Under the pieces are notes generated by a model. The model made no database searches. It was not told the origin of the DNA and saw nothing but the letters and a program-made list of their open reading frames with translations. Made by a program: the position numbers and the translations under genes. Shown in pieces: positions 10,725 to 29,342 of a stretch of 32,154 bases of DNA (positions within the stretch are counted from its first letter, which is position 1; every line of letters starts with the position of its first letter). Origin of the DNA: a bacterium (GTDB lineage: Bacteria; Patescibacteriota; Patescibacteriia; Patescibacteriales; GWC2-42-12); the NCBI GenBank assembly GCA_030649205.1, contig JAUSGE010000009.1:1-32154 (forward strand), written 5' to 3'.

Positions 10725-10737
10725 AATATGCGGACAG

Positions 10738-10899
10738 GATTAATTTCTGAATTTACTCGCATCCAGGATGATTTTTGCCTCCGGCACGGCTGAATTTGCC
10801 TAAAAATGGCAAACTCGCTCCGCTCAAACATGCCATTTTCTTAACGGCAAATTCAGCCTAAAAATCATATGTCTGCTCGTAAAATTCAGGAATTAATCC
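10738..10899. repeat. Long imperfect hairpin (about 162 nt) between rpsU and yqeY
   Basis: Outer arms 10738-10757/10879-10899; inner perfect arms GGCTGAATTTGCC/GGCAAATTCAGCC and AAAATGGCA/TGCCATTTT; apex aactcgctccgctcaaac. Confidence 0.85.
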
Positions 10900-12910: not shown

Positions 12911-12989
12911 AATTAGTTGCGCTTGGCATTTTAATTATGTTATAATAGTATTATAAAAAAGTGGAAAAGTCAAAAGAGTTTGATTCAAA

Positions 12990-13140
12990 AATCCTAAACT
13001 CTAAACTCTAAATCCTAAACAAATTCTAATGCTCCAAATTCTAAATTCAAAACAAATGCAAATGTAAATGCAAATGCATTTAGTTTGGAATATTTGAATT
13101 TAGGATTTAGGATTTGTTTAGAGTTTAGGATTTAGAATTT
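12990..13140. repeat. Telomere-like CCTAAA/TTTAGG degenerate inverted repeat
   Basis: Left arm aatcctaaactctaaactctaaatcctaaacaaattct...ctaaattcaaa; right arm tttggaatatttgaatttaggatttaggatttgtttagagtttaggatttagaattt. Confidence 0.85.
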
Positions 13141-13149
13141 ATTGTCCCC

Positions 13150-15933: not shown

Positions 15934-15940
15934 AAGTAAT

Positions 15941-16074
15941 CGTCATTCCCGTGAAAACGGGAATCCAGAAAAAATTCTGTCTGGATCCCTGCTTTCGCAG
16001 GGATGACGAAAAGGGGCAGGCATGACGGATAAGCAAACGTCATTCCCGCGCAGGCGGGAATCCAGAAAAAAATG
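15941..16074. repeat. VIPAKAGIQ-type palindromic repeat cluster, left flank of the GIY-YIG ORF
   Basis: cgtcattcccgtgaaaacgggaatccag...ctggatccctgctttcgcagggatgacg and cgtcattcccgcgcaggcgggaatccag. Confidence 0.9.
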
Positions 16075-16368
16075 TACCAAGAAAAAATATCGTACATCTA
16101 TATCATGGCCAGCGGTAAGAATGGAACTTTGTATATTGGAGTAACTTCAAATCTGCAGGATAGAGTAAATAAACATAAGCAAGGCCTATTTGGCGGATTT
16201 ACCAAAAAGTATAATATTATAGATTTAGTTTATTACGAAATATTTGGCGATATTCAAGAAGCCTTTACCAGAGAAAAGCAGTTAAAAAAATGGAAAAGAA
16301 ACTGGAAGATAAAGTTAATTGAAAAAGATAATCCGGGCTGGAACGATTTATCTGATAAATTATTTTAA
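16072..16368 (+). CDS. GIY-YIG domain protein
   Basis: 'SYIYIMASGKNGTLYIGVTSNLQDRVNKHKQGLFGGFTKKYNIIDLVYYEIFGDIQEAFTREKQLKKWKRNWKIKLIEKDNPGW'; single-domain UPF0213/YhbQ-like form. Confidence 0.93.
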   Translation: MYQEKISYIYIMASGKNGTLYIGVTSNLQDRVNKHKQGLFGGFTKKYNIIDLVYYEIFGDIQEAFTREKQLKKWKRNWKIKLIEKDNPGWNDLSDKLF

Positions 16369-16372
16369 AATC

Positions 16373-16555
16373 GTCATTCGTGGAGTTTCTGGATGCCTGC
16401 CTACGCAGGAATGACGGATAAGCAAACGTCATTCCCGTGAAAACGGGAATCCAGAAAAAATTCTGTCTGGATCCCTGCTTTCGCAGGGATGACGGAGAGG
16501 GGCAAGGGATGACAAAAGAGGCGCGGGAATGACAAAGATAAGCCCGCAATGACAA
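16373..16555. repeat. VIPAKAGIQ-type palindromic repeat cluster, right flank of the GIY-YIG ORF
   Basis: Includes a 68-nt segment (16427-16494) identical to 15941-16008, and atgacggataagcaaacgtcattcccg identical to 16022-16048. Confidence 0.9.
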
Positions 16556-23731: not shown

Positions 23732-24418
23732 ATGTTTGACGATTTGGATAAACAAAATGCGCCAGAGTCCTCTGCGAGAGACTCTGGCGGAGAAAGTAAC
23801 CCCCCTACCCCCCTTTTAAAGGGGGGCGCTTCGGCGCCGGTAAAAGTTGAAGACATTTTGGCCGAAGTTGACCGAGGTGGTAAGCCGGAAGCGTTTCGTC
23901 CCAGGCCGGCTAACGTTCCTCCAAGTTACGGCACGGTCATTCCGGCCGATGATAGCTGGTTAAAAAATAAAAAATTGATTTTTGGCTCGCTGGCCGGAAT
24001 TTTTGTTATTTTAGCCGGAGTTTATTTTGGGCTGATGCTGATGAAAAATAAAACACTGCCTGAAAGCGCGAGCGCGCCAGAGCAGCCGGTTAATCAGGTA
24101 AATAATGAAATCAACGCTCCGGCCGCGCCTGAAGACGCGCCTGCTAATCCCCAGACACTCGGTGTCCCGGGGACACCGAGTGTCTCTGCAGACACTGACC
24201 AGGACGGCTTGACCGATGAAGAAGAGTCCGCGCTGGGCGCTAATCCCAATGATCCGGACAGCGATCAGGACGGTTTGACCGACCGCGAGGAAGTTAAAGT
24301 CTATCTGACCGATCTTTTAAAGCCGGATACTGACGGCGACGGTTATCCTGACGGCACCGAAGTTAAAAATGGCTATGATCCCAAAGGGCCGGGTAAATTA
24401 TTGGAAATAAAACCATAG
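23732..24418 (+). CDS. Membrane-anchored protein with thrombospondin type-3-like (DxDxDG) repeats
   Basis: TM 'LIFGSLAGIFVILAGVYFGLMLM', then 'DTDQDGLTDEEESALGANPNDPDSDQDGLTDREE...DTDGDGYPDGTEVKNGYDP'. Confidence 0.82.
   Translation: MFDDLDKQNAPESSARDSGGESNPPTPLLKGGASAPVKVEDILAEVDRGGKPEAFRPRPANVPPSYGTVIPADDSWLKNKKLIFGSLAGIFVILAGVYFGLMLMKNKTLPESASAPEQPVNQVNNEINAPAAPEDAPANPQTLGVPGTPSVSADTDQDGLTDEEESALGANPNDPDSDQDGLTDREEVKVYLTDLLKPDTDGDGYPDGTEVKNGYDPKGPGKLLEIKP
24153..24185. repeat. Perfect 16-1-16 palindrome inside a CDS, same arms as the yqeY terminator
   Basis: AGACACTCGGTGTCCC-G-GGGACACCGAGTGTCT, encoding ..QTLGVPGTPSVS.. Confidence 0.92.
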
Positions 24419-24423
24419 AGCTT

Positions 24424-25440
24424 ATGTTTAACATGCTTAACATAATCAGGAAAAAGCCAGTGGAAAATTCCCAGACGCCGGATGTCCCGGGGACGTCCGG
24501 CGTCTCCGGCGAAAAGCAGATTAATCTTGATAAAATCGCCATCCATGCCATGCCGGAGCATTTTCGCCATCAGACGGCTAAGGTTAAAAGCGCTAAAACC
24601 GCCGGCATTGTCATTATTGCCGGAGGCGGATTTTTACTGATTGCGGCTTCGCTCGGACTGTATTATTATTTATTCAGAACGCCCGCGCCGGCGGTTCAGA
24701 GCCAGCCCGCGGCTTTAAATAGCGCGCCTGATGATCAAAATCAAAACCAGCCGGCGGTTGAACAAAATACAGCCGGCTTGGCTACCACCACCGAGCCCGC
24801 GACTTTGCCCGCGGACAATGATTTAGCCGCTTCCACGGCCAGCACCACTTCGCCGGCCGGCGAGCCGGGCATGAGCGGCGACAGCCTAAAATCAGGATTG
24901 GACAGCGATAATGATAGCTTGACTGACGCGGAAGAAGATTTATTAGGCGCCGCGACCTCCACGCCTGATACGGACGGCGACGGCTATCCTGACGGCACCG
25001 AGCTGATTAATTTATATGATCCGGCGAGCCAAGGAAAATTAACCGATAACCCTCATATCGCGCTTTATGAAAATAAAACCTTTAATTATGGCGCGCTTTA
25101 TCCTAAAGTTTGGGAGCAGAGTTCTAATGGCGGAGACGATTCGGTGATGTTTAAATCCGCCGATAATCAGTTTATTCAAATTGTGGTTCAGCCCAATCCG
25201 GATAAACAGCCGCTAGACCAATGGTACATAGATCAGCTGGGCGTTGCTTCGGTTAGTGAAGCAAACCGCGCCGCCGGCGCGAACTGGCAGGGCATAAAAA
25301 GTTTGGATGGCTTGACTCTCTACTTAACCGACAGCCGGCAAAATTATATTTTCAGCCTGACGTATAATCCAACCGAGAGCAATATTTTAGAGTATATTGA
25401 TATTTTTCAGATGATGATTAAGTCGTTTGCGTTAAAATAA
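24424..25440 (+). CDS. Membrane-anchored protein with TSP3-like repeat, paralogous architecture to 23732..24418
   Basis: TM 'AGIVIIAGGGFLLIAASLGLYYYLF', 'DSDNDSLTDAEEDLLGAATSTPDTDGDGYPDGTELINLYDP', then a globular C-terminal domain. Confidence 0.8.
   Translation: MFNMLNIIRKKPVENSQTPDVPGTSGVSGEKQINLDKIAIHAMPEHFRHQTAKVKSAKTAGIVIIAGGGFLLIAASLGLYYYLFRTPAPAVQSQPAALNSAPDDQNQNQPAVEQNTAGLATTTEPATLPADNDLAASTASTTSPAGEPGMSGDSLKSGLDSDNDSLTDAEEDLLGAATSTPDTDGDGYPDGTELINLYDPASQGKLTDNPHIALYENKTFNYGALYPKVWEQSSNGGDDSVMFKSADNQFIQIVVQPNPDKQPLDQWYIDQLGVASVSEANRAAGANWQGIKSLDGLTLYLTDSRQNYIFSLTYNPTESNILEYIDIFQMMIKSFALK
24473..24505. repeat. 16-1-16 palindrome inside a CDS, same arms as the topA terminator
   Basis: AGACGCCGGATGTCCC-G-GGGACGTCCGGCGTCT, encoding ..QTPDVPGTSGVS.. 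Confidence 0.92.
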
Positions 25441-25877
25441 TGAAATTAGAAATTAATAATCGGACAAAAAGCAAAATTGATTTGGCGGTGGTAAAAAAAA
25501 TTGCGAGCGCGTTCAGCCGGAAATATAAATTGGGCGATCAGGAGCTGTCCTTGGCTTTTATCGGCGACGCGGCCATGAAAAAGCTGAATCGGAAATATCG
25601 CGGACAAGACAGCCGGACGGATATTTTGTCTTTTCGGGGCGAAGCTGACTTTTTTGGAGAACTGATTATTGATTACGCGCAGATAAAGCGGCAGGCCAAA
25701 CAGTTCGGCCAAACCGCCGAGCATGAGCTGGCCTTTATCCTGGTCCACGGCCTCCTGCATTTGATCGGCTATGATGATAAGACGGAGCGGGAGAGGAAGA
25801 AGATGATAAAAATTGGAGAGGAGTTTATAAAGCGTCATTGCGAGCGACTGGAAGGAGCGAAGCAATCTCACGAATAG
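25440..25877 (+). CDS. ybeY: Endoribonuclease YbeY (rRNA maturation factor), C-terminal tail from a repeat
   Basis: 'LSLAFIGDAAMKKLNRKYRGQDSRTDILSF', 'GELIIDYAQIKRQA', 'HELAFILVHGLLHLIGYDD'. Confidence 0.94.
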   Translation: MKLEINNRTKSKIDLAVVKKIASAFSRKYKLGDQELSLAFIGDAAMKKLNRKYRGQDSRTDILSFRGEADFFGELIIDYAQIKRQAKQFGQTAEHELAFILVHGLLHLIGYDDKTERERKKMIKIGEEFIKRHCERLEGAKQSHE

Positions 25878-25945
25878 AGAGTTTAGATAAAAGTTTATAG
25901 TTTGTGAGATTGCTTCGCCCCGCATCCGCGGGGCTCGCAATGACA
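25834..25945. repeat. MITE-like inverted repeat (family A) overlapping the ybeY 3' end
   Basis: gtcattgcgagcgactggaaggagcgaagcaatctcacgaat...tgtgagattgcttcgcc...ctcgcaatgacaa. Confidence 0.85.
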
Positions 25946-26337: not shown

Positions 26338-26601
26338 ATGGCAAAGTTTTATTATGTGTATACGCTTAAATCCAAGAAAGACAAGAAAAATTATGTCGGT
26401 TATACGGAAAATTTAAAATTACGATTTGAGCGGCATAATAAAGGGTTGGTTGAATCAACAAAAAATAGAAGGCCATTTGCCATAATATATTATGAAGCCT
26501 GCCTAAGCCGAACAGATGCTACGCGTAGAGAAAAATATTTGAAAACGTATCATGGCAAGATGTTTTTAAAGAAAAGGCTCAAATCGTATTTAACAGGGTG
26601 A
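26338..26601 (+). CDS. Second GIY-YIG domain protein
   Basis: 'FYYVYTLKSKKDKKNYVGYTENLKLRFERHNKGLVESTKNRRPFAIIYYEACLSRTDATRREKYLKTYHGKMFLKKRLKSYL'. Confidence 0.93.
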   Translation: MAKFYYVYTLKSKKDKKNYVGYTENLKLRFERHNKGLVESTKNRRPFAIIYYEACLSRTDATRREKYLKTYHGKMFLKKRLKSYLTG

Positions 26602-26645: not shown

Positions 26646-27911
26646 ATGAGAAATAACATTATTGCCGGATTAGACATCGGCTCAACCGCCATTAGATTGG
26701 TAGTCGGCCAGAAAATCGCGAATGAATCGGGTGAACAGCTGCAAATTTTAGGCGCGGTGATCGTGCCGGCTGAAGGCATTAATCGCGGCGCGGTTAATAG
26801 CATTGAAGACGCGACTTCGGCGATTTCGGCTTGTTTGGAAAAAGCCGAAAGGCTGATCGGCGTGCCGGTGCAAAATATCTGGGTCGGCATCAACGGGCCT
26901 AATTTGAAATGCGAAAAAAGCCAGGGCGTGGTCGCGGTGGGCCGGAGCGACAACGAGATAACCGAAGATGACGTCAATCGGGCGATTGAAGCGGCGCAGG
27001 CCTTGTCCGTGCCGCCGAATTATGAAATCCTCCATGTCATTCCGGTTAAATTTACCGTGGATAACCAGGAAGACATTAAAGATCCGATCGGCATGACCGG
27101 GGTAAGATTGGAAGTGGAAACTTTAATAATCCAAGGGCTGTCCAATCAAATAAAAAATTTAACCAAGGCCATTTACCGCACCAGTTTGGAAATTGAGGAT
27201 CTGGTGCTGTCGCCTTTGGCCGCGGCCGAGGTAGTCATTAGCTCCAAGCAAAAAGAGCTGGGCGCCGCGCTGATTAACATCGGTTCGGCCACTACCAGCC
27301 TGGCGGTGTTTGAAGAAGGCGAACTATTGCACGCCGCCGTCATTCCCATCGGTTCCGAGCACATCACGGCTGATGTGGCCATCGGCTTGCGCTGTCCGAT
27401 TAATTTGGCTGAAAGAATTAAATTGGATTTCGGCTCGTCCCGAAGTGAAAAATACAGCAAAAAAGACGAAGTGGATATTTCCGATCTGGCCAAAGAAGAA
27501 AATGTGGGCGAGGAAAGCATGGTGATTTCCAAAAAATACGTGGCGGAAATAATTGAAGCGCGCGTGGAAGAAATTTTTGAGAAGATTGACAACGAACTTA
27601 AAAAGATTGACCGTTCCGGCATGCTGCCGGCCGGAGTTTTTTTGATCGGCGGCGGCGCTAAACTGGCCGATATCGTGGAAACGGCAAAAAATAAATTGCG
27701 CTTGCCGGCTTGCTTGGGCACGAATAAGAATATCTCGCTGGCGCTTGATAAAGTTAATGATATTAATTATTTAACCGCTTTGGGCCTGGTGGCCTGGGGC
27801 AATCAGTTAACCAAAGGCAAAAAAGGCTCAAGGCTGAATTGGCCGGGCGGCGGCGCGGCCGGTAAAACTCTGGACAAAGTCAAAGGCTGGTTCAACTCCT
27901 TGATTCCTTAA
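26646..27911 (+). CDS. ftsA: Cell division protein FtsA
   Basis: 'IIAGLDIGSTAIRLVVGQ', SHS2-like 'VPAEGINRGAVNSIEDATSAIS', 'HVIPVKFTVDNQEDIKDPIGMTGVRLE', 'GVFLIGGGAKLADI'. Confidence 0.96.
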   Translation: MRNNIIAGLDIGSTAIRLVVGQKIANESGEQLQILGAVIVPAEGINRGAVNSIEDATSAISACLEKAERLIGVPVQNIWVGINGPNLKCEKSQGVVAVGRSDNEITEDDVNRAIEAAQALSVPPNYEILHVIPVKFTVDNQEDIKDPIGMTGVRLEVETLIIQGLSNQIKNLTKAIYRTSLEIEDLVLSPLAAAEVVISSKQKELGAALINIGSATTSLAVFEEGELLHAAVIPIGSEHITADVAIGLRCPINLAERIKLDFGSSRSEKYSKKDEVDISDLAKEENVGEESMVISKKYVAEIIEARVEEIFEKIDNELKKIDRSGMLPAGVFLIGGGAKLADIVETAKNKLRLPACLGTNKNISLALDKVNDINYLTALGLVAWGNQLTKGKKGSRLNWPGGGAAGKTLDKVKGWFNSLIP

Positions 27912-27930
27912 GATAGGCGGCGCATGAAGG

Positions 27931-28029
27931 CTTGGGTAAAATTTATTAAATTTTCTACTGCGGAACTCGGCCGCCTGCTGGCGGCCTCAAACAGTCCTCG
28001 CACGAAAATTTAACAAAATTTTACCCAAG
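27931..28029. repeat. Long hairpin in the ftsA-ftsZ intergenic region
   Basis: Outer arms cttgggtaaaatttattaaattttc / gaaaatttaacaaaattttacccaag; inner arms GGCCGCC-tgct-GGCGGCC; apex flanks aactcg...ctcaaac. Confidence 0.88.
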
Positions 28030-28084
28030 ACATAGGTGTATAAAAGTTTTATACAGTCTGATTTTTAAGCGATTGGACAAGTAC

Positions 28085-28113
28085 TTGATAAAATTTTAAG
28101 AATAAGTTAAGAT
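28085..28113 (+). promoter_or_regulatory. Putative ftsZ promoter
   Basis: TTGATA (28085-28090), 17-nt spacer, TAAGAT (28108-28113). Confidence 0.45.
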
Positions 28114-28154: not shown

Positions 28155-29342
28155 ATGGCTGAAGTAAAACCCATCGTGGAAACGTTCGCCAAAATAAAAG
28201 TCATCGGCGTGGGCGGCTCGGGCGGCTCGGCCGTTAACCGCATGATTGATTGCGGCATCAGAGGCGTGGAATTCATCGCGGTTAACACCGATGTGCAGGC
28301 TTTGCATTACAACAAAGCCAGCAAAAAAATTCATATCGGCAAGACTATTACCCGCGGCTTGGGCGCGGGCATGAATCCTGATTTAGGCAAGCGTTCGGCC
28401 GAAGAAGCGCAAAATGAAATTCGCGATATGCTGAAAGACGCGGATATGATATTTGTTACTTGCGGCCTGGGCGGCGGCACCGGCACCGGCGCTTCGCCTT
28501 CCATCGCCGAGATCGCCCGCGACCTGGGAGCCTTGACCGTGGCCGTGGTAACCAAGCCGTTTTCGTTTGAAGGCGCGCAGAGAAAAAATATCGCCGAGCG
28601 CGGTTTGGCTGATTTGACCGATAAGGTTGATACGATTATTACCATTCCCAATGATAAATTACTGCAAGTGATTGATAAAAAAACTTCGCTGTTAGACGCC
28701 TTTATGGTAGTGGACGAGGTTTTGCGCCAGGGCGTGCAGGGCATTTCGGAGTTAATCACCATTCCGGGCTTGATTAACGTTGATTTTGCCGATGTTAAGG
28801 CCGTGATGGCCAATGCCGGCTCGGCCTTAATGGGCATCGGCCAGGCGTCGGGCGAAAACAAAGCCATTGAAGCGGCCAAAATGGCCATCAGCTCGCCGCT
28901 GTTGGAAATGTCCATTGAAGGCGCGCGCGGCATTCTCTTTACCGTGGTTGGCGGGCCCAACTTATCCATGCATGAAGTCAATGAAGCGGCCAAAGTGGTA
29001 ACCAGCTCGGCCGACGAGGACGCGAAGATCATTTTTGGCGCCGTAATTGATGAAAAATATAAAGATGAAATTAAGATTACGGTGGTGGCGACCGGCTTTG
29101 ACGGCCGCCGCGTCGGCATCAGCGAGTCAATGCAGGCGGAAAGAAGCTACACCCCTAATCCCTATATCATGGCCGAAGAAGAAAAAGAGAAGAAAGAGGC
29201 CATGAGCCTGAATTTGAAAAAGAAAAGCAAGATCTCTCCTTTAAAGCAGGCCCAGGCCGAACCGGCGCAAAAGAAAGGCGCGGAAGTTGACGAAGACGAC
29301 GAGTTAGGCATCCCGGCCTTTATCCGGAAGAAGATGATGTAA
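28155..29342 (+). CDS. ftsZ: Cell division protein FtsZ
   Basis: '[19 protein letters not shown]', '[16 protein letters not shown]', '[14 protein letters not shown]', C-terminal '[10 protein letters not shown]'. Confidence 0.97.

Follow-up and report, generated by a model that had tools for sequence, protein, structure and literature searches.

Results

A hairpin between ftsA and ftsZ is one copy of a repeated palindrome

We analyzed a window of 32,154 nucleotides from a Patescibacteriota genome and conclude, with a probability of roughly 0.75, that the hairpin between its ftsA and ftsZ genes belongs to a MITE/REP-like family of mobile, non-autonomous palindromes with dispersed copies, one of which has inserted right behind the ftsA stop codon. 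As far as the tools used here show, the family is best filed as a new superfamily of such palindromes, and it appears to be unnamed.

The hairpin at 27931-28029 had been proposed from the sequence alone and is present as described. Its arms are 83% complementary over 24 nt (Table 1), and the segment folds with z = -4.7 relative to shuffled sequences, none of 200 shuffles doing as well. A second copy, at 10737-10899, is longer (about 163 nt against 99 nt) and folds better still (z = -9.1). The similarity of the two apices is no coincidence: ACTCG..CTCAAA occurs twice in the window, against 0.09 occurrences expected in shuffles. Across copies, the apical stem takes either a short form, GCTNCGC, or that of a stem of ~7 bp, with both sides changing together in a compensatory manner.

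Table 1. Coordinates of the ftsA-ftsZ hairpin, its surroundings and the second copy in the window
Feature	Position	Strand	Remarks
Subfamily B copy	10737..10899		Only the AACTC..TCAAAC apex in common with the ftsA-ftsZ hairpin; nine copies in the genome, with similar arms
ftsA	26646..27911	+	Pfam SHS2_FTSA and FtsA
Inserted segment, about 115 bp	27921..28035		Relative to the empty ftsA-ftsZ spacer of G009 (...TAGGCGG/GTGTATAA..., slash at the insertion point)
Left arm CTTGGGTAAAATTTATTAAATTTTC	27931..27955		Class alpha; homology and covariation with 19 further dispersed copies
Conserved core TGCGGAACTC-(apex)-TCAAACAGTCCTCGCA	27959..28002	-	Reverse strand folds: TGCGAGGACTGTTTGA(apex)GAGTTCCGCA
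Apical hairpin GGCCGCC-TGCT-GGCGGCC	27969..27986		From comparison of copies
Right arm GAAAATTTAACAAAATTTTACCCAAG	28004..28029		Pairs with left arm
Conserved palindrome GTGTATAAAAGTTTTATACAG	28036..28056		Found between ftsA and ftsZ in many relatives; lies immediately 3' of the insertion
Promoter-like TTGATA-17-TAAGAT	28085..28113	+	Conserved in relatives; insertion upstream, ftsZ downstream
ftsZ	28155..29342	+	Pfam Tubulin and FtsZ_C

We searched the source genome (1.22 Mb in 50 contigs, 97.7% complete) for further copies. The pattern AACTCGN{2,22}CTCAAAC matched 19 times, compared to 7 for its reversed control, and the full core, TGCGG-AACTC-(apical stem)-TCAAACAG-TCCTCGCA, matched seven times, compared to none. 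The seven full cores, the ftsA-ftsZ hairpin among them, make up family A; the remaining AACTC..TCAAAC apices fall into family B, with nine long copies, and a few others. The sequence-only reading had noted that the arms of the hairpin are unlike those at 10738-10899. This is so, but the latter copy belongs to subfamily B, whose nine members have arms similar to each other.

The window contains other repeats as well. At 12989-13141, several inverted pairs are formed by AAACTCTAAATCCTAAA-type repeats. Two near-perfect small hairpins, AGACACTCGGTGTCCC and AGACGCCGGATGTCCC, lie at 24153-24185 and 24473-24505, within or close to the ORFs at 23732-24418 and 24424-25440.

The hairpin is absent from orthologous sites

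The proposed insertion is borne out by comparison of the ftsA-ftsZ spacer with those of 26 relatives, among which empty spacers lack the whole hairpin. The empty spacers of G003, G004, G009 and G011 contain neither arm. A few bases past the ftsA stop codon, relatives carry a palindrome, GTGTATAAA..TTTATACAG, with TTGATA-17-TAAGAT next; the insert lies between the stop and this conserved operator- or promoter-like region of ftsZ. The palindrome and promoter-like sequence at 28036-28113 form a possible operator of ftsZ. An independent copy with different arms sits elsewhere within the same spacer in G007, and other relatives have unrelated palindromes or nothing there.

A copy in the dnaA region likewise has an empty counterpart: the site is filled in G012 and empty in G008, the insert being bounded by AGGACTTACG and CGTAAGTCCT. 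Together with locus L373, these sites show a small, dispersed, non-autonomous insert that is missing at orthologous positions, as in a MITE.

The ends of the element differ between lineages. In class beta the termini are (C)AGGACTTACGC..GCGTAAGTCCT(G), with AGGACTTACGC as the terminal inverted repeat, and we saw no transposase between such ends (families tested directly: Y1 and GIY-YIG). Core-free minimal palindromes of 40-60 nt with the same ends, along with mosaic nested palindromes, occur in G007, G010 and G012 (L330-L359). One core copy encloses a second small palindrome. At a site occupied by a family A core in G368, G229 has a sister core, TGCGG-GGCTCG..CTCGAACACA-TCCTCG, and this sister core is repeated in both genomes (L395, L398, L362, L370). 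No general or consistent target-site duplication was found among the copies. Direct repeats of at least 6 nt flank 15% of them, compared to 6.5% in controls, and are clear only in some lineages. In one Myxococcota genome (L053, L080, L105, L115, L120), copies judged by eye have apparent 8-bp CTAnnTAG direct repeats and TIR-like ends.

The core is dispersed across about eleven phyla

The exact family A core occurs 83 times in 10 of 61 related genomes, and its reversed control not once. Some genera carry 7-20 copies per genome and sister genera none, a patchy presence within one family; in the class, 25 of 381 genomes contain the core. A scan of genome contigs returned at least 120 stretches with the core, spanning about eleven phyla among the matches listed: Patescibacteria, Pseudomonadota, Bacillota, Bacteroidota, Actinomycetota (Coriobacteriia), Myxococcota, Chloroflexota, Nitrospirota, Campylobacterota, Desulfobacterota and Gastranaerophilales. 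Because cultured isolates contain several exact copies (26 in Niveibacterium sp. 24ML and 6 in Dechloromonas hankyongensis), the core is no assembly artefact. Novimethylophilus is a further cultured carrier. It was not found in collections of viral contigs, phages, plasmids and E. coli genomes.

The genes flanking the copies are housekeeping genes with no recurrent partner; a Pfam scan of 239 flanking ORFs gave no recurrent neighbor or mobility gene among the most frequent families listed. Rfam yielded no credible match for the hairpin family at gathering or relaxed thresholds, and a search of open papers for the core strings returned nothing relevant.

Arms are shared between copies or drawn from the host site

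The sequence-only reading held that a conserved apex is combined with arms specific to each locus. The apex does recur, but the arms of the window copy are shared. At least 12 of the outer 16 positions of its left arm are matched in 12 other copies, where about 0.04 would be expected, and 20 alpha-class copies from several genomes (the window copy and 19 dispersed others) can be aligned. In this alignment, 94.7% of cells are paired, double changes affect 26 of 40 pairs, and covariation reaches 0.458, compared to 0.149 after shuffling and no more than 0.09 after sliding. Classes beta, gamma and delta each have their own shared arms. Homology of arms among copies had been named in advance as the observation that would speak against the proposal, and it is what we find for the window copy. 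Because the empty sites contain neither arm and the arms are homologous to those of 19 copies, we reject the suggestion that this copy arose with an inverted duplication of local DNA.

Comparing arms with flanking or empty-site sequence, as had also been proposed, gave both outcomes. At ftsA-ftsZ and L373 the empty site lacks both arms, and at L373 the arms therefore came with the insert. At pgm in two species, G229 and G266, in contrast, the left arm is the native 3' end of the gene (MTGKPLI-stop), conserved in element-free orthologues. The right arm reverse-complements these local codons and tracks the synonymous differences between the two genomes (TTATTTGA versus TCAAATAA in G229; TTAATCTGA versus TCAGATTAA in G266). 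The inverted-duplication idea thus holds for some members of the superfamily. Taken together, pgm and L373 show that arms can arrive with the element or be copied from the site. The pgm copies come from another Patescibacteria family, f41, in which the outer arms of copies are locus-specific.

Could such copying be the rule, with insertion of the core accompanied or followed by local inverted duplication and each copy taking its arms from its own site? We consider this possible but unlikely. Beyond pgm, where synonymous codons that differ between genomes are mirrored in the right arm, a similar pattern occurs at rnhA (L379) and L363, where pairing extends into the coding ends, and template switching can create, perfect and maintain paired stems (PMC8794818). 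The same explanation has to contend with window arms that match 12-19 other loci, with the absence of both arms from the empty ftsA-ftsZ and L373 sites and with the pgm copy of G368, in which arm pairing has decayed.

A further reading, which we hold to be doubtful, makes the hairpin core an independent module, spread over about eleven phyla, whose arms are template-switched from neighboring DNA at each site. If it were true, the core alone would be inherited and the arms rebuilt from the host, so that the module grows its own ends and nests, as a mobile unit, inside other palindromes.

Copies fold better on the strand antisense to the upstream gene

We place more weight on the mobile palindrome than on a functional RNA, although several features invite the latter reading. 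Most copies sit 3' of a gene, their forward core running in the sense direction (48 in ++ context, 20 in --, 29 convergent and 7 divergent). The upstream gene is co-oriented with the copy in 77 of 104 cases; the associated p of about 1e-6 comes from simple ORF calls on copies that are not fully independent and is to be read accordingly. With helices that covary and loops that do not vary, the hairpins might be structured RNAs acting in 3' untranslated regions, for example in mRNA stability or processing. We judge this improbable. The reverse strand has the lower RNA folding energy in 115 of 129 copies, and in 9 of 20 alpha copies one pair is a G-U on that strand; wobble-type mismatches and predicted folding energies point to the reverse strand as the one that folds. 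Since the forward core is sense to the upstream gene, the better-folding strand is antisense to it. The failure of Rfam to match the family, its patchy presence and the empty sites in relatives also fit poorly with such a role, and a position downstream of genes is shared by ordinary REPs (PMC3733652). Covariation alone is no proof of RNA function, because template switching also makes and keeps paired stems. The orientation bias could nevertheless fit a transcribed element as well.

On megabase contigs, exact cores (L360-L374) all lie on one strand, 7 of 7 in G368:C1 and 8 of 8 in G229:C3. This uniformity is partly explained by shared ancestral, orthologous sites.

Neither Y1 transposases nor GIY-YIG nucleases consistently accompany the core

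Small nuclease genes and palindromes of REP type are present in the window. A small GIY-YIG nuclease gene at 16072-16368 is flanked on each side by CGTC-1/dRS3-type palindromes, CGTCATTCC..GGAAT (15939-16500), an arrangement reminiscent of Ssn nuclease and the NTS repeats in Neisseria. Another small GIY-YIG gene, at 26338-26601, lies directly upstream of ftsA and about 400 bp from a palindrome, GTCATTGCGAG..GAAGCAATCTC, at about 25836-25945.

Such genes and CGTC-type REPs, found in the window and in relatives, would suit an ordinary REP family mobilized by a RAYT/IS200-like Y1 transposase or served by an Ssn-like GIY-YIG nuclease, and REPs are described as mobile hairpins (PMC3116915). This account is very unlikely given where the two mobilizer families that we tested directly occur. 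Y1 transposases are absent from G012, G064 and G073, despite 14, 6 and 10 copies of the core. GIY-YIG nucleases show neither adjacency nor consistent co-occurrence with the core; the only match in G007, which carries 7 copies, is weak and probably UvrC. Around the Y1 and GIY-YIG genes examined, no core is present within about 1.5 kb. The hairpins themselves also depart from REPs: no unpaired GTAG or CGTC tetranucleotide is conserved at the palindrome end in 20 aligned copies, lengths of 99 nt and about 163 nt exceed the 20-40 bp REP unit, and no RAYT (Y1_Tnp) gene flanked by the repeats was found in G012, G064, G073 or the Y1 loci fetched.

We also considered a split transposon. In 1.35 Mb there were no lone half-cores flanking a gene, and apparent cases were intact copies with sequence variants such as TCAGAC.

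The hairpin lacks the features of a terminator

The position of this stable 99-nt hairpin between ftsA and ftsZ had suggested an intrinsic terminator or attenuator tuning read-through from one gene to the other, which we regard as highly improbable: no T-tract or terminator-like site (a GC-rich stem followed by a T-tract) was found at the hairpin, the conserved promoter-like site and palindrome of ftsZ lie downstream of the insertion and are also present in hairpin-free relatives, and other relatives carry unrelated palindromes or nothing at this position. With no terminator and an ftsZ promoter-like site downstream, control of read-through is therefore unsupported. Most likely, the hairpin has little regulatory effect here and is a passenger rather than an ftsZ switch.

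Discussion

The center of the family is almost invariant. By predicted folding it forms best on the reverse strand and comprises an apical stem, an unpaired GTTTGA/G loop and a helix that contains a bulged A and a G-T/U wobble. Arms around it differ between subclasses and yet stay paired. We infer that the folded single strand may be what a trans-acting enzyme recognizes. Template switching in the course of replication, selection for pairing or both would keep the arms complementary and at times lengthen the paired region into host DNA. Several observations count against a mobile palindrome: neither a transposase nor a nuclease is tied to the family (Y1 and GIY-YIG were examined), target-site duplications are not consistent, conservation of the center rather than the ends is unusual for a transposon, and the orientation bias could also suit a transcribed element.

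If the family is indeed real and mobile, very distant bacteria, tiny Patescibacteria and cultured betaproteobacteria among them, share a conserved, folding-dependent sequence that has spread with no known enzyme and without appearing in phage or plasmid collections. The family also offers a natural system for asking how palindromes keep their pairing, by selection or by template switching, since a synonymous change in a coding arm reappears in the non-coding one. It cautions, too, against reading covariation as proof of RNA function.

Among known repeats, the GTAG and CGTC REP super-families are hairpin palindromes dispersed across phyla, most of them 3' of genes and in spacers of the convergent or unidirectional kind. 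Each unit spans 20-40 bp, one of its ends carrying an unpaired GTAG or CGTC tag, and the CGTC group has no known transposase (Di Nocera et al. 2013, PMC3733652). Our hairpins share the cross-phylum dispersal, the location mostly 3' of genes and in such spacers and, with CGTC REPs, the want of a known transposase. Unlike REPs, they measure about 70 to 160 nt or more and lack conserved ends; what stays invariant is a central core that contains internal loops. Like prokaryotic MITEs, they are short non-autonomous inserts with inverted ends, as in class beta; unlike MITEs, they have ends that vary by lineage around a common center, and we found no transposase flanked by half-cores. ERIC, RPE and similar repeats are also long intergenic imperfect palindromes with no known mobilizer, but their sequences differ from those described here, and they are not known to span about eleven phyla with a single invariant core. 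An invariant center with replaceable arms sets the family apart from the known kinds, as far as these tools show.
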